Assembly (NCBI GenBank): GCA_019359095.1
Contig: JAHHHZ010000013.1
Span: forward strand, 62,001 to 126,000
Reading direction: 5' to 3'
Source of the DNA: Pleurocapsa minor HA4230-MV1
GTDB lineage: Bacteria > Cyanobacteriota > Cyanobacteriia > Cyanobacteriales > Xenococcaceae
DNA length: 64,000 bases
The notes below the pieces were generated by a model that ran no database searches, was not told the origin of the DNA, and worked only from the letters and a program-made list of their open reading frames with translations. Both the position numbers and the translations under genes were made by a program. Below, one piece after another: positions 916 to 10,577 of the stretch; position 1 is the stretch's first letter, and each line of letters opens with the position of its first letter.

Positions 916-2124
916 TTACCCTGCCAAAACTTGAATTTTAGGTTGAGTATTTACTGCCAAAACGCGAGCGTAAATCTCTCGCCAGTTGGCTTGTTCTACA
1001 GCAGGGTTTAAATCTTGAATAACTTTTTGTTTAGCTGCTTTACCAAAACTCTTTCTGAGTAAAGGATTATCTATTAATTGCGCGATCGCAATTTTCAACT
1101 CCTCACTGGAATAGGGATTTACAAGTAAACCGTTGACACCATCTTCAATAATTTCGGCGATCGCATCGACATTTGTACCCACCACCGCTTTTTCGGCTAA
1201 CATGGCTTCGAGTAAGGCATTAGGACAACCATCATTGAGAGAAGGAATGGCAAAGATGTCCATATAGGCTAAATATCCCAAGGCTTGTTCTCGACTTACT
1301 TTACCGGTAATTATTATTTTGTCTTTTAAGCCACTATTTATTAATTCTTGCTCCCAATATTCTCTTTCTTTAGCAACAAACTCACCAACAAATAATAAAG
1401 TAAATTCTGTTTCTATTGTTTGACAAGCGTCTAAGAGATATTCAATCCCTTTTTTATCCCGAAAATTACCTACAGAACCAACTACTGTTCCTTTTAATTG
1501 ATTCACTAAAGACGGAGTGGGCAGGCTATTAAAATCTACAGGGGCAATCGAGTTTAAAAATGCCGAAGATTTATTCACAATTGTCGGTTCAAATAATCTG
1601 GCACGGTGCATTAGATCCTGACTAACAAAAGTAGTCCAATCAGAATTAGCTAAAGTCCAGGCTATTTGTTTTTGCTGTTGAGAATCAAAAATATGTTTGT
1701 GTAAATCTGCACCACGCACACTATTGATCACTGATAGTCCATTTTCTTTAGCTAACATAGTAGTTAAAAAACCAGTTTCGTTAATAAAAAAAGCATGAAC
1801 TACATCAAATTGATATTGTTTATGAAGGACAGTTAACTGTCCATAAATATCCATTAAATAATCTTGATCGCGAGCTAGTGTCGAACGAATAGCAGGATAT
1901 AAACGATGAACAGTAATCCCATCTTGAATACTAGTTTCACAACGAGAACGACTAAAATTTCCTGCGTTAGCTAACTTTCTTTCTTGACGAAATATAGAAC
2001 GAAAAACCGCTACATGAACCTGATAACCTAAGTCTGTTAATAACAAAGCAATACGTTTAGCAGATACCCCTACTCCACCGACATCAGGGGGAAATTCTTG
2101 GGCTGTAAGACAAATAGTTTTCAT
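916..2124 (-). CDS. Glycosyltransferase family 4 (GT1/GT4 superfamily)
   Basis: This 402-residue protein has the GT-B two-domain layout. The N-terminal domain begins MKTICLTAQEFPPDVGGVGV, with the glycine-rich GGVG loop typical of GT4 family members. The C-terminal domain holds GSVGNFRDKKGIEYLL, IPSLNDGCPNALLEAMLAEK (the E-x7-E donor-site region) and NGLLVNP. Family members are retaining glycosyltransferases using NDP-sugars. It starts a leftward unit with the GT2 gene. An operator of three 11-bp repeats and a TAATAAT -10 box lie 40-95 bp upstream. Its acceptor is unknown; a role in exopolysaccharide or surface glycan synthesis is inferred from the neighbouring genes. Confidence 0.88.
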   Translation of the reverse strand: MKTICLTAQEFPPDVGGVGVSAKRIALLLTDLGYQVHVAVFRSIFRQERKLANAGNFSRSRCETSIQDGITVHRLYPAIRSTLARDQDYLMDIYGQLTVLHKQYQFDVVHAFFINETGFLTTMLAKENGLSVINSVRGADLHKHIFDSQQQKQIAWTLANSDWTTFVSQDLMHRARLFEPTIVNKSSAFLNSIAPVDFNSLPTPSLVNQLKGTVVGSVGNFRDKKGIEYLLDACQTIETEFTLLFVGEFVAKEREYWEQELINSGLKDKIIITGKVSREQALGYLAYMDIFAIPSLNDGCPNALLEAMLAEKAVVGTNVDAIAEIIEDGVNGLLVNPYSSEELKIAIAQLIDNPLLRKSFGKAAKQKVIQDLNPAVEQANWREIYARVLAVNTQPKIQVLAG

Positions 2125-2164: not shown

Positions 2165-2218
2165 ATTATTATTTAGTCTGTCAAGTTATGATTAATCGTT
2201 CGTGAAACTTTTGTGAGA
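2165..2218 (-). promoter_or_regulatory. Direct-repeat operator plus -10 box for the GT4/GT2 unit
   Basis: On the plus strand three hexamers with an 11-bp period start at 2191 (ATTAAT), 2202 (GTGAAA) and 2213 (GTGAGA). The central 16-mer is TGAAACTTTTGTGAGA. Read toward the gene, a TAATAAT box (complement of 2165-2171) lies 20-26 nt past the last repeat, as expected when an OmpR/PhoB-type activator replaces a -35 element. The same arrangement occurs near 6787 and 9411. The assignment to a regulator is inference. Confidence 0.6.
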
Positions 2219-2224
2219 GAATTT

Positions 2225-2296
2225 TCATGAAGCGATTGGGCTTCACCTACGGACGCGCCTCCAGGCGCTAATCCTTTAGGGCTTCGCGATCGCCTG
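2225..2296. repeat. Interspersed palindromic repeat (ATCCTTTAGG family)
   Basis: This stretch carries GGCGCTAATCCTTTAGGGCTTCGCGATCGCC-like modules broken into short palindromes, including the ATCCTTTAGG core. Related modules recur near 17430, 28160, 35514, 47150, 51405, 58490 and 62020. It sits in the spacer between the GT4 promoter and the toxin gene. No coding function is seen. Confidence 0.6.
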
Positions 2297-2331
2297 AGTT
2301 GTGGTGTTTATCTAACCTGAATTAATATCCT

Positions 2332-2748
2332 TTATTTCCAAGGATTAACTATATCGATACCACATTCTCTGAAATCATCTACATTTCGCGTTGCTAAAGT
2401 AGCGTTATGGCAACGAGCGATCGCAGCAATCTGAGCATCAATTTGAGAAATAGGACGACCGATTTTTCTTCTTTTGGCAGCTATAGTTGCAAATAATTGT
2501 GCTGCATCGGTATCAAAAGGCAAAATACGCCCAGTAAAATCCAACTCAAACATCAAGTTAGCTGCTTTTTTCAAGGCAGTACGTCGTTTTCCTGCTGGTA
2601 AAATTTCCAAGCCATAGAGAATTTCAGCTTGAGTCAAAGTAGTAATAAATAAGCTGGGTGCTTGATATTTACCGAACCAAAGCACTACCGATCTATCGGG
2701 TTGCGACTTCATGAGTTCCGATAAAACATTAGTATCGAGAATGATCAT
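2332..2748 (-). CDS. PIN-domain toxin (VapC/FitB type)
   Basis: This 138-residue PIN-domain protein starts MIILDTNVLSELMK, with the first catalytic aspartate at residue 5. It has the central acidic region around TLTQAEILYGLE and the later acidic pair in SQIDAQIAAIAR and LATRNVDDF. PIN toxins are Mg-dependent ribonucleases that cut tRNA, rRNA or mRNA when freed from the antitoxin. The ATG overlaps the antitoxin stop codon by one base (TAATG), the usual coupled order of antitoxin then toxin. The catalytic acids look intact, so the module may be functional. Closest in style to FitB of the FitAB subgroup. Confidence 0.9.
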   Translation of the reverse strand: MIILDTNVLSELMKSQPDRSVVLWFGKYQAPSLFITTLTQAEILYGLEILPAGKRRTALKKAANLMFELDFTGRILPFDTDAAQLFATIAAKRRKIGRPISQIDAQIAAIARCHNATLATRNVDDFRECGIDIVNPWK

Positions 2749-2996
2749 TACCCAAATTGAGGGGGTTCGCGCATCTCTTCACGAAAAGCAGCAGGAAGAT
2801 CGTCAACTCCACCTAGTTGGGCAAAACGTTTTTGAATTGATTCAGCCAGATTTTCTGACAATTGAGTATCTTGCAATAAAGTATGGCGTAAAATTTGCCT
2901 TACTTCTTCCTCCATAGAATTACCGTGATGTGCAGCCCGAATACGTAATAATTCTTTTATTGGTTCTTCTAAATTGCGGATAGTTATGCTTGCCAT
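2748..2996 (-). CDS. FitA-like ribbon-helix-helix antitoxin
   Basis: An 82-residue protein beginning MASITIRNLEEPIKELLRIR, the FitA/Arc-type beta strand and first helix of a ribbon-helix-helix DNA-binding domain, followed by HGNSMEEEVRQILRHTLL. The C-terminal part (roughly 45-82) would bind and block the PIN toxin encoded immediately downstream. Antitoxins of this type repress their own operon together with the toxin. The operator was not identified with confidence; an inverted repeat lies 150 bp upstream at 3148-3183. Confidence 0.88.
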   Translation of the reverse strand: MASITIRNLEEPIKELLRIRAAHHGNSMEEEVRQILRHTLLQDTQLSENLAESIQKRFAQLGGVDDLPAAFREEMREPPQFG

Positions 2997-3147
2997 AGTA
3001 TTTTAGTTTCACTTCCTGCTTACATTGTAATCAATGCTAGCAATGCTATCAATTAAATGTCGCTCAAACTAGGGGCAAATCCTCCGCTTCTAATTCTTTT
3101 TTTTAAGTAATCTGATGCCACAAATCATCTACACAACTGAAAACTAA

Positions 3148-3183
3148 AATGTAACAATATTCAGTATTAAACATTGTTACATT
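3148..3183. promoter_or_regulatory. Perfect 11-bp inverted repeat
   Basis: AATGTAACAAT at 3148-3158 and its exact reverse complement ATTGTTACATT at 3173-3183 are separated by 14 bp. It lies between the leftward toxin-antitoxin operon and the rightward DUF6745 gene. It could be a dimeric operator or a hairpin; there is no T-run that would make it a terminator. Confidence 0.45.
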
Positions 3184-3270
3184 CGAGAGACTAGTTTTGA
3201 TTCTCTTAAATGGAATTTTTCTTTTCAACTATACTTAAGAGTTGCAATCGGCGTGATTCTTAATAAAAAT

Positions 3271-4017
3271 ATGAAGTTGTCATTGGAACAAGAAGCCTTG
3301 ATACCTGTATATACAGAAAAGTGGGTGAATATTGCTTTTTCTGAACAGAATATAGATCGAGAGCGAGCGAAAAAAATAATTATTGCTGCATACACATTTT
3401 TAGGATACTCTGAACCAGAAATTCTATTTTTCAAGAATATTGAATCAATTGCTCAAAGTATTCAACCTCTTCTAGAAGAAAAAATATTAGGTTTGACCAA
3501 ACAAAGTAAAGAACCAGTTCTAAAGAGAATTGGCAATAAATTAGGAAAACCTCTTGCTGGTCGTCTTCAAGGTTTATACAGACAGCTTTGTGTTGAAGTT
3601 GATTCCGAATATTATGCTTTATACCAAAATTTATTTGGTTTAGATTTATATAGACGAGAAAAATATTTCTATCAAATATATGATTATACGACTCATGATT
3701 GCTCGAATAAAATAAAGCAAAACTTAAACTTTCAAAATTATGAGTTAAGATTCATTTCATCAGAAAAATTGAAAGTTAAACTTCAGGATAAATTTTTCGA
3801 TGCTATTTTTCCCAACACATTTTATACTAATGATTGCCTATTCATTGATTATTATTGTGAAGTACTAAATCGTAGTTGTAATTATGATCTATGGCATATT
3901 CTCAAGCAACTTTGTGCAGACTGTGGACTAATGCTCATTCCTTTTCAGTCAATATGTTTGGTTTGCGATCGCTATCAACTTCCAATCAAAAATTCAAGAA
4001 AGCTTGAGTATTTTTAA
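3271..4017 (+). CDS. DUF6745-like protein, shortened at the C-terminus
   Basis: The N-terminus (MKLSLEQEALIPVYTEKW, then a region ending PEILFF) matches the other family member in this window at 41863-42987 residue for residue in many places, for example LTLEQINLIPSYVEKWKKIA and PPVILFF. I believe both belong to the DUF6745 family, whose function is not established. The shared cysteine/arginine motif near the C-terminus (CLVCDR here, CIICDRP in the paralogue) is followed by only about 15 residues, whereas the paralogue continues for more than 140. The break falls right after a GCGATCGC octamer. I chose ATG 3271 because paralogy starts there; a GTG at 3253 is also in frame. No ribosome binding site is obvious. 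Confidence 0.6.
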   Translation: MKLSLEQEALIPVYTEKWVNIAFSEQNIDRERAKKIIIAAYTFLGYSEPEILFFKNIESIAQSIQPLLEEKILGLTKQSKEPVLKRIGNKLGKPLAGRLQGLYRQLCVEVDSEYYALYQNLFGLDLYRREKYFYQIYDYTTHDCSNKIKQNLNFQNYELRFISSEKLKVKLQDKFFDAIFPNTFYTNDCLFIDYYCEVLNRSCNYDLWHILKQLCADCGLMLIPFQSICLVCDRYQLPIKNSRKLEYF

Positions 4018-4049
4018 GTAGGAGAGATAGATTAATAATTATTGGCGAT

Positions 4050-5201
4050 CTATACCAACTGCTTTTGCTTGGTTAATTGTTTTATATACTGTGCTGTATT
4101 GTTAACTCCAGCTAAATTTAAACTCAATTCAGTTTTATCTTGTTGAAGATAGCTAATAATTTGCTCGGCAAACTTTTCTGGTTGTAAATCTTCAGGCTGA
4201 ATCATTTTGACTCGACCTAAATTATCTAATTTCTTCAAACGAGTTTCTTGTTCTTTGTCGTTATTACCCTGAAATGCCATCATCATTGCTTTCACACCAG
4301 TGCTTAAAATATTCATGGTAGTGTTGTAACCAGACATTCCAATAGATAAGTCTGCCTGTTGCATATAATTAAGGAAATTTGGAGTGTAACGTTCAATAGT
4401 GATGTTATCTAGATTTTTAGTTATTTGTTGCAGTTTTACTAATACTTCATCAGGACTAAAAGCACCTGTAAAAACTTGCAGATGATGGGGAATTTTATCT
4501 TTTAAGATAGGTGCAGTATGAGCCACACATTCTAATAAATCGTGTCCAAATCTTCCCCCACCAACACTAACCAAAATTAAAGGTTTATTAGCTATCGGTT
4601 GAGATTGAGGTAGGGGTTGAACTACATAACCCGTGTAGTGTACAGGACAAGTTAAGTCATTAACACGAGAAAAGCTGAGGTTAAGTTTAACAAAATTAGG
4701 ATCGCCATGAATTAATAACATATCAAAATATTTATTAATCAAACGACAAACCTTTTCTTCATGTCTTTGTTGATTTTGTTTAGTAACTACAATATCTCTC
4801 ACACTAGAAACAATTTTTGTTCCCATTGCTTTAGCTTTTTCCATTAATGGAATCAATTCAAAAGAAAAGCGTCTTCTCCCAAAAGGAAATAGTTCAATAA
4901 TTAAAACATCTGGTTGAAAGCGATCGCACGTATCTAACAGGATTTTAGTTCTAATAGTTTCTAACTCTGACATGGTTAAATTATCATCTACAGGAGTAAG
5001 TTCAGTAAACTCACTATCCGTTTTGATCGCAGGAATATTGATTACTTCAATTTCCCTAGGAAACTCAAATTCTTCGATAACTTCTCCACCATTAATAAAG
5101 CAAATTTGAAAGTCAGGTATTAACCCCCGAACTATTTCTACACTGCGAATCAAATGACCCATGCCAAGAATATGTTGGCAATAAAACATTACTTTTTTCA
5201 T
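4050..5201 (-). CDS. GT28-like glycosyltransferase (COG4671-type), second of pair
   Basis: The 383-residue protein begins MKKVMFYCQHILGMGHLIRS, the G-M-G-H-x-x-R loop of MurG/GT28-like GT-B enzymes. It ends with a donor-binding region containing VSVGGGRFG and SIGMSGYNTTMNIL. It is related to the gene upstream (5330-6604), which shares the GxGNIRR and CGYNT landmarks, so the two look like diverged duplicates. Family members transfer sugars from nucleotide donors to lipid or other acceptors in the cytoplasm. It is read leftward after 5330-6604 with a 128-bp spacer made largely of TTACCTA heptamers, probably as one operon. Substrates are unknown. Confidence 0.75.
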   Translation of the reverse strand: MKKVMFYCQHILGMGHLIRSVEIVRGLIPDFQICFINGGEVIEEFEFPREIEVINIPAIKTDSEFTELTPVDDNLTMSELETIRTKILLDTCDRFQPDVLIIELFPFGRRRFSFELIPLMEKAKAMGTKIVSSVRDIVVTKQNQQRHEEKVCRLINKYFDMLLIHGDPNFVKLNLSFSRVNDLTCPVHYTGYVVQPLPQSQPIANKPLILVSVGGGRFGHDLLECVAHTAPILKDKIPHHLQVFTGAFSPDEVLVKLQQITKNLDNITIERYTPNFLNYMQQADLSIGMSGYNTTMNILSTGVKAMMMAFQGNNDKEQETRLKKLDNLGRVKMIQPEDLQPEKFAEQIISYLQQDKTELSLNLAGVNNTAQYIKQLTKQKQLV

Positions 5202-5244
5202 AATTACTATTTATTGATTGCTGATAATTAGTTATCATTCATCG

Positions 5245-5329
5245 TTACCTATTACCTATTACCTATTACCTATTACCTATTACCTATTACCTATTACCTA
5301 TTACCTACTATCCACTACCTCCTACCTAC
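5245..5329. repeat. TTACCTA heptamer array
   Basis: About nine TTACCTA units in tandem, followed by degenerate units, fill the spacer between the two GT28-like genes. The array runs into the stop codon of the upstream gene (TAA, complement of 5330-5332). It is the leader of the downstream gene if the pair is cut or separately translated. Confidence 0.85.
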
Positions 5330-6604
5330 TTAGGCAGATTTAAGAGCAATATTAGAACTTTGATCGATATAGAAAGAGTCAAATAAAAGCATTGCTAAAT
5401 AATCATTAACTCTCGGTAATCCTGTAAAATCTAAATGGCTAATAGATTTAAAATTATTAACTCGCTCTAAACTATTAAGCAAAGTTGCCATTAATAAACT
5501 AGAATTCAGTAAGTCAGGATGAATTATCTTAATTAATCCTGCTTTTGCTAAACTTTGAGCGCGGATTAATTGTTCTTGTCCTGGTTTTATACGAGGAACG
5601 ACGATCGCTTTTTTGCCTTTTTGTAAAACTTCAGTAATGGTGTTATAGCCACACATACAAATTACCGCATCGGCAGTATTAACATAGCTCATTAAATCAT
5701 TAGTGAACTCTAATACTGTAACTCCAGGTAATGATTGGGCTTTTTGATATATTTTTTGTTGCTGTTCGGGAGGCATTTCTGCACCACAAAAAATGAGGCT
5801 GCGGATTTTTTGATTGACAAAGCGATCGCGCTCTTTTGCCAAACCATCAAGATAATTATTAACTAAGAAATAACCATCTTCTCCACCGCCAGGCGTAACT
5901 AAAACTAACTTTTCATTACTTTGAATACCTAATTCTTGACGGATAGTACGACGATTTTTTAAACCAGATTCTTTGCGAATATAACCACAAAAACGGACTT
6001 TAGATGCAATTTCCTGACTAAACTGATATTCTTGACAAAGATCAAATATTTCTGGCATCCCTACTACTAAGATGCGATCGTAAATAGACTCTACTATCTG
6101 GTAATAATTTTCTTTTTGCCATTCCTGAATAGTTTTTTCTGGAGTATCTAAAATATCTCGTAATAATAAAATAAATTTAGTGTTTGGTAAATGATGTTTT
6201 AAATAGTTAATTGTTGAGTTTAATTCTCCTCGAATTCCTGATGGTTTTTTATCAACTAAAACTAAATCTGGTTGATAGTTTTTCGCTGCTGCTAAAATTA
6301 ATTCCGATCGCAAGTTTAAAATAGATTCAATATCTGCATTGAGATATTTAACCGCCATTTCTCCCGATGAACCACGATTAAGACAGGGAAGCTTGATATA
6401 GTCTAAACCTTGGGGTAAACGAAAGCTTTGCAGCATTGGTGAACCAGATACTAACAAAATCGAAAGATTAGGAATTGACTTGAGTAAAGACTTACAAATA
6501 GCTAGCATTCGGCGAATATTTCCCAAACCGTAAGCATCGTGGGAATAAACCATGATTCTTTGATATTTGCCTGTAGTAACTGAGGAAGGAAGAATACGAG
6601 CCAT
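5330..6604 (-). CDS. GT28-like glycosyltransferase (COG4671-type), first of pair
   Basis: A 424-residue protein with the N-terminal loop MVYSHDAYGLGNIRRML starting at about residue 18, and a C-terminal nucleotide-sugar site with VTPGGGEDG, FTNDLMSYV and VICMCGYNTITEVLQKGKKA. These are landmarks of MurG-like GT-B transferases. There is no signal peptide or membrane segment. It is the promoter-proximal gene of the leftward pair. Upstream lie 500 bp of non-coding DNA with two copies of the local 11-bp-period operator, the nearer one 182 bp from the start codon. The role in glycan building is inferred from the locus. Confidence 0.75.
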   Translation of the reverse strand: MARILPSSVTTGKYQRIMVYSHDAYGLGNIRRMLAICKSLLKSIPNLSILLVSGSPMLQSFRLPQGLDYIKLPCLNRGSSGEMAVKYLNADIESILNLRSELILAAAKNYQPDLVLVDKKPSGIRGELNSTINYLKHHLPNTKFILLLRDILDTPEKTIQEWQKENYYQIVESIYDRILVVGMPEIFDLCQEYQFSQEIASKVRFCGYIRKESGLKNRRTIRQELGIQSNEKLVLVTPGGGEDGYFLVNNYLDGLAKERDRFVNQKIRSLIFCGAEMPPEQQQKIYQKAQSLPGVTVLEFTNDLMSYVNTADAVICMCGYNTITEVLQKGKKAIVVPRIKPGQEQLIRAQSLAKAGLIKIIHPDLLNSSLLMATLLNSLERVNNFKSISHLDFTGLPRVNDYLAMLLFDSFYIDQSSNIALKSA

Positions 6605-6761
6605 GATAATTACGCTCTGGTTGTGACTAAATTTTTTGAGGTAGTTAGGAGAGTAGAGGAAGTAGAGAGGTGGTGGGGTAGTTAGGTAGAGGAGTTAATT
6701 CTCCACTACTTCAATAACTCCATTACTCCAAATACTCTGCTATCTCTCTAAAAAGTTTTCT

Positions 6762-6814
6762 ATTATTGTTAGTTTCACAGTTGTCAATGAATCGTCTATG
6801 AAACTTTGATGAGA
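6762..6814 (-). promoter_or_regulatory. Direct-repeat operator plus -10 box for the GT28-like pair
   Basis: Three plus-strand hexamers start exactly 11 bp apart at 6787 (ATGAAT), 6798 (ATGAAA) and 6809 (ATGAGA). Read toward the leftward gene, an AATAAT box (complement of 6762-6767) lies 20-25 nt after the last repeat, the same distance as in front of the GT4 and epimerase genes. This would place the leader at about 150 nt. Confidence 0.6.
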
Positions 6815-6878
6815 AAAATCTTACTTTAACAACAGCCATAAGCTATAAGGCAGGTGCATCTCTAAAATCGTCGGTGTC

Positions 6879-6905
6879 GGGTTTGAAGGTTAAACCCAGT
6901 TTTTT
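6879..6905 (+). terminator. Terminator-like hairpin in the divergent spacer
   Basis: GGGTTT at 6879-6884 pairs with AAACCC at 6892-6897, followed by a T-run from 6900 to 6905. No gene reads into it from the left, so it may end a short transcript starting in the spacer, or it may be fortuitous. The six-pair stem is modest. Confidence 0.35.
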
Positions 6906-7039
6906 GCAATTACTTAAATCCTGACTATTACAGGCAGTAAAAATAATTATCTGTTTACTTACTTTTGAACTTTATACTGATAACTTAAGTTCTTTTTGTG
7001 TAGCATAAATTATTTATAACTATATATAAACGACTTACA

Positions 7040-7067
7040 ATAACCTGAACATGAAACTTTGATGAGA
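7040..7067 (+). promoter_or_regulatory. Second operator copy, near the kinase gene
   Basis: ATGAAA at 7051 and ATGAGA at 7062 are 11 bp apart and share the 16-mer TGAAACTTTGATGAGA with the site at 6798. The third unit (ATAACC at 7040) is weak. It lies 40 bp before the kinase start but points the opposite way relative to the gene compared with the other sites, which would fit repression or autoregulation rather than activation. Alternatively it serves a second leftward promoter with TATA-rich DNA at 7013-7030. Confidence 0.5.
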
Positions 7068-7074
7068 CAAAATT

Positions 7075-7102
7075 AATCTTTATAAGATAATCTTTATAAG
7101 AT
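7075..7102. repeat. Tandem 14-bp palindromic unit before the kinase gene
   Basis: AATCTTTATAAGAT occurs twice without a gap (7075-7088 and 7089-7102). Each unit is itself an inverted repeat (ATCTT-tat-AAGAT). The second copy ends four bases before the kinase ATG, in the place where a ribosome binding site would be expected. Confidence 0.6.
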
Positions 7103-7106
7103 ATGT

Positions 7107-8660
7107 ATGACTCCACGTAAAAAAGTAATGAAATTTAAAAATTTTATTTGGCGAAAAATATGGGTTTATTATCATAAGCTTAAATTAAGCGTCAATTGGT
7201 TAAATCAACTACAAATATATCAAGAAGCCCGTACTCGTATTTTATTATGGTATTTAGCCTTAATGTGTTTATTTACATTGATCGCTATTCCCATGATTAA
7301 ATATCGCCTAATTGTAGAAGTAACTAATCGAGTGGAAGCAGATTTGCGGGAGGAATTGGAAGAATTTGAAGCGGAATTAATCCAAATTTTATTGAAATTA
7401 AAAGTTAAACCAGAGTTAGAACAAACAGAAGTCGAGCGAGCAAACGATAATATTTATCGAGCCTTTGATAAATTTATTTCCACTAACAAAGCCGAAGATG
7501 ATAATTATTTTATTGCTATTGTTAATGGTTTATTTTATAAAACCAATGCTGCTTTTCTACCGTCACAAATCGACCAAAATTCCGCTTTAATGCAACGCTG
7601 GCAGGAGATTACAGTCGAAGAAGAAGCAGAAATCAAAGTAGACGATCCCAAGGTTGGCAGTGTTATTTATAAAGCCGAACCGATTAAAACTACCGAGGAA
7701 GTTATTGGTGTCTTTGTCGTCGCTCACCTTTCTGCGGGGGAACGAAGGGAAGTATTAGATTCTTTTAAGATAGTTATTCAAGTTTTAATATTGATGATCT
7801 TGCTCGCTTCGTTGCTAGCTTGGTTAGCAGCAGGAAGAGTCTTAGCTCCTTTAAGAAATTTATCCGCAACAGTAAAATCTATTTCCGAATCCGACCTCTC
7901 TCAGCGTATTAATACTCAAGGCAAGGGAGAAGTTGCCCAACTGGGTCGTATTTTTAATGCCATGATGAATCGAATCGAAACTGCTTTTGATACTCAACGC
8001 AATTTTATCAACGATGCGGGACACGAACTGAAAACCCCCATTACTATCATTCGCGGACATCTAGAATTGATGGATGCCGATCCTCAATCACAACAAGAAA
8101 CCGTCGAGTTAGTGATCGATGAACTAGACCGTATGAATCGTTTAGTAGAGGATTTAGTTTTGCTAGCAAAATCAGAACGTCCTGATTTTTTGCAGATCGA
8201 AACCATCGAGTTAACTTCTTTTGTGACGGAACTATTTAGTAAACTGCAAAAACTGGGGCAGAGGAATTGGTATTTAGACAACGCAATATTATCAGGTAGA
8301 ATGACGGGCGATCGCCAAAGAATCACTCAAGCAATTATTAATTTGGCAAACAATGCTGTACAGCATACCATCACCGACAGTTTAATTGTTTTTGGGGCGA
8401 AAATAGAGGGCAAGCGCGTTGAATTTTGGATTCGCGATACAGGAAATGGCATTGCTGCCGACGAACAAAAACGGATTTTCGATCGTTTTACTAGGGTAAA
8501 AAATACTCGTCGTCGTTCGGAAGGTTCTGGTTTGGGTTTAGCCATTGTTAAGACAGTAGTAGAAGCTCATGGCGGAGCGATTAATCTTCAAAGCCAACTG
8601 GGGATTGGTTCGACCTTTTCCTTAGTTTTTCCCTTAGAATTTAACGAAAAGCAGAATTGA
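7107..8660 (+). CDS. Transmembrane sensor histidine kinase
   Basis: The 517-residue protein has a first membrane helix at about 43-63, an extracytoplasmic sensor region of about 150 residues rich in acidic coiled coil, a second helix at about 221-243 and a HAMP linker (VLAPLRNLSATVKSIS). The HisKA motif NDAGHELKTPITII follows, with the phosphoacceptor His306, then an HATPase domain with N box (INLANNAVQHT), G1 (DTGNGI) and G2 (GSGLGLAIV). All catalytic boxes look intact. It overlaps the next gene, a response regulator, which should be its partner. The start could also be ATG 7128; no ribosome binding site is clear at either. The signal sensed is unknown. Confidence 0.92.
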   Translation: MTPRKKVMKFKNFIWRKIWVYYHKLKLSVNWLNQLQIYQEARTRILLWYLALMCLFTLIAIPMIKYRLIVEVTNRVEADLREELEEFEAELIQILLKLKVKPELEQTEVERANDNIYRAFDKFISTNKAEDDNYFIAIVNGLFYKTNAAFLPSQIDQNSALMQRWQEITVEEEAEIKVDDPKVGSVIYKAEPIKTTEEVIGVFVVAHLSAGERREVLDSFKIVIQVLILMILLASLLAWLAAGRVLAPLRNLSATVKSISESDLSQRINTQGKGEVAQLGRIFNAMMNRIETAFDTQRNFINDAGHELKTPITIIRGHLELMDADPQSQQETVELVIDELDRMNRLVEDLVLLAKSERPDFLQIETIELTSFVTELFSKLQKLGQRNWYLDNAILSGRMTGDRQRITQAIINLANNAVQHTITDSLIVFGAKIEGKRVEFWIRDTGNGIAADEQKRIFDRFTRVKNTRRRSEGSGLGLAIVKTVVEAHGGAINLQSQLGIGSTFSLVFPLEFNEKQN

Positions 8661-9337
8661 TGATGAAACAAATATTAATCGTGGAAGATGAAACCAGAAT
8701 TGCTGCTTTTATTGCCAAAGGTTTAAAAGCCAAAGGTTACAACACCACCATTGTCGAAGATGCGGAAACTGCCTTAGCTATGCCTTTTAGTTGTCAATTC
8801 GATCTGGCACTCCTAGATTTAGGCTTACCAGGTCAAGATGGCTTAACGGTCTTAGAAACATGGCGCGGACAGGGAGTCAATTTTCCCGTGATTATTTTGA
8901 CTGCCAGAGACGATGTGATGGATAAAGTAGCAGGCTTAAAAGGTGGCGCAGATGATTATATGACCAAACCTTTTAGCTTTGCTGAACTACTCGCTCGCAT
9001 AGAAGTGAGATTAAAAGCTAGTAATAATAATCATCAAGCCGAAGCTAAGATGCAGATTCAGCGAGGCAATATGATTCTTAATCTGCGTACGCGCAAAGTT
9101 CAAGTGGGCGATCGCGAAGTGGAATTACCAGCCAGGGAATTTACGATGGTAGAAGTGTTTTTTCGCCATCCTGGGCAAGTAATGACCAGACAACAATTAT
9201 TAGATTTGGTTTGGGGATACGATTACGACCCTGGTTCTAATATTGTCGATGTTTATGTTGGTTATCTACGCAAAAAATTAGGCAACGAATCGATTGAAAC
9301 CGTCCGAGGTATGGGTTATCGGTTGGGTAGTAGTTAG
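8660..9337 (+). CDS. OmpR/PhoB-family response regulator
   Basis: The receiver domain comes first (ILIVEDE, phosphoacceptor Asp53 in LALLDLGLPG, conserved Lys103 in MTKPF), counted from ATG 8660. A C-terminal winged helix of the OmpR family follows (ELPAREFTMVEVFFRHPGQV, then VDVYVGYLRKKL and TVRGMGYRL). I chose ATG 8660 because it overlaps the kinase stop codon as TGATG; a TTG at 8657 and an ATG at 8663 are also in frame. OmpR-family proteins bind direct repeats about 11 bp apart, and exactly such repeats flank this gene pair (2191, 6787, 7040 and 9411). It is therefore the best candidate regulator of the surrounding glycan genes. Confidence 0.92.
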   Translation: MMKQILIVEDETRIAAFIAKGLKAKGYNTTIVEDAETALAMPFSCQFDLALLDLGLPGQDGLTVLETWRGQGVNFPVIILTARDDVMDKVAGLKGGADDYMTKPFSFAELLARIEVRLKASNNNHQAEAKMQIQRGNMILNLRTRKVQVGDREVELPAREFTMVEVFFRHPGQVMTRQQLLDLVWGYDYDPGSNIVDVYVGYLRKKLGNESIETVRGMGYRLGSS

Positions 9338-9391
9338 TAGGTAGTAGGTAGTAGGTAGTAGTTAGTAGGTAGTGGGTAGTAGGTAATAAGT
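9330..9391. repeat. TAGTAGG heptamer array
   Basis: Degenerate tandem GTAGTAG and TAGTAGG units begin at the stop codon of the response regulator and run into the spacer before the epimerase. It is the reverse-complement version of the CTACCTA type arrays seen elsewhere in the window. Confidence 0.75.
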
Positions 9392-9410
9392 GTCTCAACA
9401 ATGAAAAATT

Positions 9411-9465
9411 TCTCACTTAAGTTTCATATCGCTTTCATTGATTAAGACGAAAGTAAAAGTATTAA
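9411..9465 (+). promoter_or_regulatory. Direct-repeat operator plus -10 box for the epimerase gene
   Basis: On the plus strand TCTCAC (9411), TTTCAT (9422) and TTTCAT (9433) are 11 bp apart; on the other strand this reads as the same TGAAACTTNNRTGAGA core as the three other sites. A TATTAA box at 9460-9465 follows 22-27 nt after the last repeat. The gap to the start codon is 74 bp, close to the 66 bp in front of the GT4 gene. Confidence 0.6.
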
Positions 9466-9512: not shown

Positions 9513-10577
9513 ATGAAAATTCTCGTTACTGGCGTAGCTGGCTTTATTGGCTATCATTTAGCTACAAGGTTATTGGCAGAAGGTAATCAAGTTTACGGTA
9601 TAGACAACCTCAATGATTACTATGATGTCAGTCTCAAACAAGCTCGTCTCCAACAAATATTACCCCAGAGCAATTTTACCTTTGACTATTTAGATATTAG
9701 CGATCGCACTTTGGTAGCAGAATTATTTGCAGCCAATGACTTTGATGTTGTGGTTCATTTAGCTGCTCAAGCTGGTGTACGTTATTCCCTACAGAATCCC
9801 CATGCTTATGTTGATAGTAACTTGGTTGGTTTTACCAATATCTTAGAAGGTTGTCGTCATAGTTCGATTAAGCACCTGATTTTTGCCTCTTCCAGTTCAG
9901 TATATGGTGCAAATACCAAAGTTCCTTTTGCTGTCAGTGACAATGTCGATCGTCCCATCTCTCTCTATGCAGCCACCAAAAAAGCTAATGAGTTAATGGC
10001 TCATGCCTATAGTCATTTATATCAAATACCCATTACTGGCTTGCGTTTCTTTACTGTTTATGGAGCTTGGGGTAGACCTGATATGGCATATTTCAAATTT
10101 GTTAAAGCGATCGCTGAAGACCGACCTATTGATATTTATAATTTTGGCAAAATGAAGCGAGACTTTACCTATATTGATGATGTTATTGAAGCAGTAACTA
10201 GAATTATTCCTACTCAACCTTTAACTCGCAATGGACAACCCCCTTATAAAATTTACAATTTAGGTAATAACCAACCAGTCGAGTTGAAGGAATTTATCAC
10301 CACGATTGAAACAATTATGGGCAAATCAGCTCGCAAAAATTTACTGCCCATGCAGCCAGGAGATGTAGTCTCTACCTATGCAGATGTCCAAGAATTAATT
10401 ACAGATTTTGATTTTCAACCCAGTACTTCTATTGCGGTGGGACTGGAAAAATTTGTTAGCTGGTATCAAGAATACTATCAAGTTGCTGGTAGTGCATTAA
10501 GAAAGTATGGGAGCGATCGAATAACCCAGTTTCCACACGTAGCTTATTTAGATGAAATGCTTTCTCTGCGGTCATGA
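9513..10577 (+). CDS. NAD-dependent nucleotide-sugar epimerase (UDP-glucuronate 4-epimerase type)
   Basis: A 354-residue extended short-chain dehydrogenase with the Rossmann motif GVAGFIG (residues 7-13), a serine cluster ASSSSVYG near 126-132 and the catalytic YAATK (Tyr152, Lys156). The sequence IDNLNDYYDVSLKQARL is typical of CapI-type UDP-glucuronate 4-epimerases. These interconvert UDP-glucuronate and UDP-galacturonate for capsule or exopolysaccharide precursors. An AGGAG ribosome binding site lies at about 9500. About 20 residues after SWYQEYY form an extra tail. It lies behind its own copy of the operator. Exact substrate (UDP-GlcA, UDP-GlcNAc or other) is not certain. Confidence 0.88.
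   Translation: MKILVTGVAGFIGYHLATRLLAEGNQVYGIDNLNDYYDVSLKQARLQQILPQSNFTFDYLDISDRTLVAELFAANDFDVVVHLAAQAGVRYSLQNPHAYVDSNLVGFTNILEGCRHSSIKHLIFASSSSVYGANTKVPFAVSDNVDRPISLYAATKKANELMAHAYSHLYQIPITGLRFFTVYGAWGRPDMAYFKFVKAIAEDRPIDIYNFGKMKRDFTYIDDVIEAVTRIIPTQPLTRNGQPPYKIYNLGNNQPVELKEFITTIETIMGKSARKNLLPMQPGDVVSTYADVQELITDFDFQPSTSIAVGLEKFVSWYQEYYQVAGSALRKYGSDRITQFPHVAYLDEMLSLRS

Follow-up and report, generated by a model that had tools for sequence, protein, structure and literature searches.

To our knowledge, only a few cases of switches acting on the surface polysaccharides of cyanobacteria are known. For the sulfated polysaccharide synechan, control by the two-component system XssS/XssR and the STAND activator XssQ is described in passages of PMC8205485 and PMC13125312. 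Another two-component pair considered for comparison and set aside is that of scytonemin, which passages of PMC2726228 describe as a PAS kinase with a regulator linked, through the reference given there, to the AraC class. The present analysis concerns a stretch of 64,000 nucleotides of the cyanobacterium Pleurocapsa minor HA4230-MV1 (hereafter the window, i.e., C13:62001-126000 of a genome of 5.64 Mb in 36 contigs), in which the genes of a sensor kinase and an OmpR/PhoB-family response regulator lie among glycan genes preceded by repeated, operator-like sites. Similarly to XssS/XssR/XssQ, this would be a cyanobacterial two-component system over exopolysaccharide genes, but the XssR type is a regulator without a DNA-binding domain, whereas the regulator of the window has Trans_reg_C.

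Three described types of sites are comparable with those of the window. The putative CopR site of Synechocystis PCC 6803 is given as TTCATN4-5TTCAT in a passage of PMC4182526, where it is also reported in front of mntC and in the region separating the nrs operons. CopRS and the window share the TTCAT half-site, the repeat of approximately 11 bp and an OmpR-type regulator; however, the CopR site consists of two half-sites without an inverted arm and serves metal-resistance targets, whereas three half-sites and glycan genes are found here. The CusR box of Escherichia coli is AAAATGACAAnnTTGTCATTTT (a passage of PMC11195947), and its half-site and spacing are shared by the outer arms ATGA-N8-TCAT of the window's sites; here, on the contrary, two direct half-sites come after the palindrome and lead to a -10-like block. 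According to passages of PMC4415409 and PMC3798270, PHO boxes and ArcA sites are 11-nt direct repeats, of which an ArcA site often has three to five. The 11-nt direct repeats are common to the window, but the half-site sequence and the targets are different and an inverted outer arm is added. The regulator class is known, but the locus would represent a regulon not described before, whose operator is arranged unlike those in the literature passages compared. No description of this regulon was found among the titles and abstract starts listed from open-licence literature.

From the sequence evidence, it is quite probable that the kinase-regulator pair is a dedicated activating switch of the local polysaccharide regulon and that one of its sites is the leftover of a deleted gene. 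The evidence consists of the sites, their confinement to the locus, their conservation, their co-occurrence with the regulator and a scrap of a gene. An initial annotation of this DNA had suggested that the regulator at 8660-9337 activates the glycan genes nearby, and this interpretation is supported with amendments, in which binding and activation are what we infer.

The 16-mer pattern of that annotation, TGAAACTTNNRTGAGA, has four exact matches in the whole genome, all at the places reported (2203, 6799, 7052 and, on the other strand, within 9411-9426). With one mismatch, there are two more places genome-wide. C13:57645 is a true fifth site, located 4.3 kb left of the window and approximately 54 nt before a histidine-phosphatase gene. 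C28:1447 was rejected as a site and lies inside a 388-aa open reading frame (ORF) that resembles a transporter permease. Also rejected was C13:4667, where both inner half-sites are exact but overlap the end of an unrelated ORF. With up to two mismatches, the pattern is found 90 times in the genome, no more often than its reversed control (101 times). Within the window, 5 such matches compare with an expectation of 1.79, and 5 of 100 shuffles reached this number as well. The evidence therefore rests on the exact sites.

Two profiles were used for scanning the genome. R1, a sequence-only profile of 17 sites aligned without gaps (five own and 12 from relatives), found five sites of 24.7-33.7 bits, all within C13:57631-71441 (13.8 kb around the regulator gene), and in the genome beyond these five nothing scored above chance, with the next-best match at 10.7 bits. 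The training set of R1 includes the five own sites, and its information is thus the absence of other matches. R2, composed of 36 sites and 65 columns with the fourth site left out, found four own sites at E 3.8e-14 to 7.2e-12. Its next match, at 23.9 bits, was a copper-type site on contig C29 aligned solely over the second half-site and what follows as far as the -10 block; the fourth site ranked below it with 15.7 bits. The genome scan proposed with the initial annotation therefore shows matches confined to this locus by exact pattern, R1 and R2, and a chance origin of the repeats was rejected on the grounds that exact and profile matches are both so confined. The features of the locus are the following (window coordinates unless a contig is named).

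C13:61816-62808 (in the window up to ~808): GT2 gene (PF00535), after GT4
916..2124, minus strand: GT4 glycosyltransferase (Pfam PF00534)
2175..2228, minus strand: GT4 operator and promoter-like block (R1 and R2 scans; 48.3 bits, E 4.5e-12 with R2), with inverted arm 2223-2228, half-sites 2213-2218, 2202-2210 and 2188-2196, and extended -10-like block 2175-2183
4050..5201, minus strand: GT28a, GT28-like glycosyltransferase, second of the pair (Pfam PF04101)
5330..6604, minus strand: GT28b, GT28-like glycosyltransferase, first of the pair (Pfam PF04101)
6771..6824, minus strand: GT28-pair operator and promoter-like block (R1 and R2 scans; 54.9 bits, E 3.8e-14 with R2), with degenerate arm 6819-6824, half-sites 6809-6814, 6798-6806 and 6784-6792, and extended -10-like block 6771-6779
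6837..6899, minus strand: scrap of a UDP-glucose dehydrogenase gene, 21 codons with an internal stop (compared with the gene of genome G002)
7037..7069, minus strand: fourth site, half-sites 7062-7067 and 7051-7059 kept (24.7 bits with R1)
7107..8660, plus strand: membrane sensor histidine kinase (HAMP, HisKA, HATPase_c)
8660..9337, plus strand: OmpR/PhoB-family response regulator, the putative operator binder (Response_reg and Trans_reg_C)
9401..9454, plus strand: epimerase operator and promoter-like block (R1 and R2 scans; 51.0 bits, E 6.2e-13 with R2), with inverted arm 9401-9406, half-sites 9411-9416, 9419-9427 and 9433-9441, and -10-like block 9446-9454
9513..10577, plus strand: sugar-nucleotide epimerase (Pfam Epimerase and GDP_Man_Dehyd; under every NCBIfam cut-off), perhaps, from family resemblance, a UDP-glucuronate 4-epimerase

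The anatomy of the operator was determined from 47 of 61 site rows (14 weak or without DNA were dropped), of which 45 could be put in register and 40 were kept as non-redundant. R2 took 36 of these 40, omitting two sites of G032, the orphan site of the window and its counterpart in G002. Numbering starts at the T of TCTCAY, and TCTCA at 0-4 is the alignment register, hence fixed by construction. An inverted ATGARA arm is located at -10 to -5 (T in 39/40, G in 32/40). It is followed by a conserved AAG at 8-10, YTTCAY at 11-16 with C14 and A15 in all 40 sites, a third half-site (T24 and A26 in 40/40, T27 in 39/40) and a downstream block with G or A at 36 in 39 and with A39 and T43 in 38 sites each. 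The direct half-sites TCTCAY, YTTCAY and NTTMAT are stepped by 11 bp, so that toward the gene the arms are ordered inverted, direct, direct, direct, with phased conservation. When a -10 hexamer was scanned over positions 30-61 of the 40 sites, its mean was positive solely at 38-43; at 38, 19/40 sites exceed 2 bits, frequently with TG at 35-36. The hexamer at 38-43 starts approximately 8-10 nt beyond the third half-site, and the conserved block at 36-44 may represent an extended -10.

In comparison with the initial annotation, the operator is larger, having an extra inverted arm and a nearer -10-like block. In detail, the inverted ATGAAA arm had been missed; it lies 4 bp outside of the outermost repeat. 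It is well preserved at 2223-2228 and at 9401-9406, whereas 6819-6824 has a degenerate form (GTAAGA) and 7072-7077 has none. Two corrections apply to the ATGAAA-like hexamers reported exactly 11 bp apart: 2191 reads ATTAAT, and at 7051/7062 only two half-sites are good, the third position (7040) reading ATAACC. As reported, three sites are directed toward GT4, the GT28 pair and the epimerase; the fourth is directed away from the kinase gene. The -10 box that had been located 20-22 nt beyond the final repeat is, on the contrary, not what is conserved; the conserved element is nearer.

This architecture bears on the direction of control. OmpR/PhoB-family regulators may activate or repress, and the operator extends to the promoter core, as would be expected if the same regulator on the same operator acted by repression, or both ways, as a promoter roadblock. 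The innermost half-site, however, occupies the place of a -35 element and no good -35 is conserved, which is the plan of PhoB-type activation when the distances to the promoter are compared; repression is accordingly considered unlikely.

The sites are conserved in relatives before homologues of the same genes, which agrees with the check on spacers suggested at the outset. At 38 of 47 sites (relatives and own), the ORF that follows is homologous to one of the genes of the cluster, i.e., GT28b (13 cases), the epimerase (9), GT4 and the ABC exporter (5 each), the phosphatase (3), UDP-glucose dehydrogenase (2) and a porin (1); to these are added the orphan site and 8 unclear cases. The GT28b count includes two tandem sites before one 35%-identical homologue in G040. 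A second set of 25 picked rows, 21 of them outside of the window's family, has as next gene GT28b (7), UDP-glucose dehydrogenase (4), a receiver-domain gene (2), the epimerase (1) and, once each, a sulfotransferase, a sulfate permease, a DUF5648 protein and a protein with no known assignment, with 7 unclear. In relatives, the targets would also include UDP-glucose dehydrogenase, an OprB-type porin and the MsbA-like exporter. Some relatives have the cluster order kinase, regulator, receiver, UDP-glucose dehydrogenase and GT28b, and others GT28b, GT28a, ABC exporter and phosphatase. Strong sites precede the sulfotransferase gene of G010 (L208 7852-8724) and the sulfate permease gene of G247 (L198 7266-8411), the latter adjoining the kinase-regulator pair.

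In an independent test, a 36-site matrix (window family and one outside genome) was applied to 30 loci of 40 matches, covering at most 890 bp of the DNA that precedes GT28b. The best score was above all 60 shuffles in 27/30 loci (18/21 outside of the family) and above 15 bits in 23/30 (17/21 outside). Failures were G195, G232 and G074, and in G195 a site is found one gene upstream, before UDP-glucose dehydrogenase. Scores upstream of GT28b in G017, G022, G014 and G049 were low, still above the shuffles, and the site of G235 is 817 nt from GT28b.

Two further observations concern the clusters of relatives. A porin gene following the phosphatase gene (L031 10872-12353) passes the NCBIfam 'iron uptake porin' cut-off, and in G003 the homologous gene is preceded by an operator of its own. 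In several relatives, the gene after the regulator encodes a separate receiver-domain protein of ~120-170 aa (L191 6676-7089 and similarly L192, L198, L204 and L206), in some cases immediately preceded by a site; no such protein was seen at the same place in the window.

The link of the sites to the regulator is strengthened by their co-occurrence with its orthologues. A regulator match at E <= 1e-75 is present in 75/243 genomes of the order, whereas all 30 genomes with sites at E <= 1e-5 have it (Fisher p 3.6e-18, kinship ignored); these 30 represent 21 genera and 10 families. The count was built on 86 listed site rows at E <= 1e-4, at which threshold 41/42 genomes have the regulator, and the exception (G220) is a partial, copper-type match. 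Among 63 sites at E <= 1e-5, 37 are on the same contig as the regulator gene, 30 within 15 kb and 21 within 5 kb. Likewise, GT28b at E <= 1e-90 is found in 39/243 genomes, 39/39 with the regulator. Within the window's genus, G006 and G007 have neither regulator, GT28b nor site, and G012, with a 60% regulator match, lacks GT28b as well as any strong site. In 37/38 orthologue rows, six of which repeat the same gene, the recognition helix reads SNIVDVY[VI]GYLRKK (41 sequences were tried; two gave no row and one was the copper-island regulator).

The same genome contains a CopR-like regulon with comparable sites. The copper/heavy-metal island C29:25607-51031 (G000; L105, L106), with genes of an RND pump, a multicopper oxidase and a response regulator, has six TTTCAY-N4-ATTTCATTT sites with, by eye, a similar -10-like block at the same distance. 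An alternative is that another OmpR-family regulator of the cell, for instance the copper-type one on C29, binds the sites of the window and that the neighboring pair is a bystander. The TTTCAY-N5-TTTCAT sites of the island speak for this, one of them reaching 23.9 bits with R2 from half-site 2 to the -10 block. However, the C29 sites are, by eye, without the first half-site and the inverted arm and were for this reason kept apart, 30/30 strong-site genomes have the window-type regulator with many sites beside its gene, and the recognition helices differ (SNVVAAQVRLLRRK in the copper-island regulator). Binding by another regulator of the cell is very improbable.

As to family assignment, a Receiver and Trans_reg_C regulator beside a HisKA/HATPase kinase, with 11-bp tandem half-sites before the target genes, places the system in the OmpR/PhoB family. 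Closer assignments fell below the cut-offs. The regulator scored 184.1 bits with the PhoB model TIGR02154 (cut-off 296.2), 185.4 with the heavy-metal model TIGR01387 (279.2) and 166.4 with the RppA model NF041734 (250). The kinase scored 213.6 with the heavy-metal model TIGR01386, below the cut-off of 292.55, although this is still its best-scoring kinase family. Both proteins are also below the curated PmrA cut-off. Regarding CzcRS/SilRS/CopRS, none of the own sites precedes a metal-resistance gene, the targets being glycan genes. The sensor model of the kinase (mean pLDDT 81.3) resembles PAS/WalK models and structures and, weakly, CzcS. Among solved structures, the nearest to the regulator is PrrA of Mycobacterium tuberculosis, from which no functional information was gained. 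The closest kinase matches in named records are from Pleurocapsa sp. CCALA 161 (86%) and a Hyellaceae metagenome-assembled genome (91%, best segment); a plasmid search for a named close regulator gave none of at least 60% identity among the best 5000 records. A tentative reading, possible but short of probable, is that of a widespread, undescribed regulator family of metal-sensing ancestry, in which a CusR-type palindrome would nucleate binding and PhoB-type half-sites would extend the array to the -10 for a uronate/sulfate polysaccharide. Taken jointly with this, and held just as tentatively, one regulator would use both binding geometries on the same DNA.

The fourth site differs from the others in having no inverted arm, no good third half-site and no -10 block. 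In the close relative G002, a complete UDP-glucose dehydrogenase ORF (L089 2035-3417) separates GT28b from the kinase, and the counterpart of the fourth site lies 295 nt before it, in the same position as that of the window. The scrap at 6837..6899 is identical to the G002 gene in 52/64 bases and 19/21 residues. A UDP-glucose dehydrogenase scrap remains in the window's spacer and, therefore, the gene was lost there by deletion. The fourth site is probably the leftover operator of this gene and not that of the kinase. Its decay may predate the deletion, as the third half-site is already weak in the counterpart of G002.

Alternatively, 7037-7069 might be a working autoregulatory element of the kinase-regulator operon. 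It ends approximately 39 nt from the kinase ORF, both core half-sites are intact, and G009, G026 and G021 each have one site ~90-113 nt from a divergent kinase gene. Nevertheless, it points away from the kinase and the remaining operator elements (inverted arm, third half-site and -10 block) are gone; moreover, its counterpart in G002 precedes the UDP-glucose dehydrogenase gene that survives in the window as a scrap. The deletion would explain the odd polarity better than autoregulation, which is possible though rather unlikely.

Several points weigh against a dedicated activating switch. The direction of control is deduced from position, and the block at 36-44 could be, rather than a -10, one more inverted half-site. 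Of the 75 regulator-bearing genomes, 45 are without a site at E <= 1e-5, and no clear glycan target is seen at 8/47 and 7/25 sites. Sites, genes and regulator could also be inherited as one block, kinship being uncorrected in the counts. Finally, the regulator match counted for G011 is one of 60% on another contig, and its kinase contig stops right after the kinase.

In the dedicated switch that we prefer, stimulation of the kinase would lead to a phosphorylated OmpR/PhoB-type regulator that fills the long operator, with the inverted ATGARA arm paired with TCTCAY and then YTTCAY and NTTMAT at 11-bp steps. The innermost half-site, ~8 bp upstream of the extended -10-like element, would replace the -35, RNA polymerase would be recruited and transcription would rise. 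The targets here would be GT4 (then GT2), the GT28 pair, the sugar-nucleotide epimerase and, outside of the window, the histidine phosphatase. These genes would make and export a cell-surface polysaccharide containing uronic acid, as suggested by UDP-glucose dehydrogenase and the epimerase family. The product is perhaps sulfated, given a sulfotransferase in one relative and a sulfate permease in another.

Regarding the remaining genes and spacers, GT4 is followed after 107 bp by GT2 and this after 671 bp by an ABC exporter, which has no site of its own in the window genome; its identity as the heterocyst exporter HepA was rejected (377.9 against a cut-off of 725). A 254-aa ORF without a Pfam match lies between the GT4 and GT28 genes (3253-4017), and a PIN-domain gene, likely one half of a toxin-antitoxin pair, adjoins the GT4 operator (2332-2748). 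Heptamer tandem repeats (TACCCAT, TTACCTA and GGTAGTA) are found in cluster spacers at 866-904, 5245-5307 and 9326-9385, and a 14-bp unit, TAATCTTTATAAGA, occurs twice at 7074-7103, between the fourth site and the kinase start.

In ten families of a single order, it is possible to name the regulator together with its operator and presumed target genes, which would allow targets to be predicted for further genomes. The composite operator is also relevant to the way in which OmpR-family relatives with a shared TTTCAT half-site may keep their targets apart in one cell.

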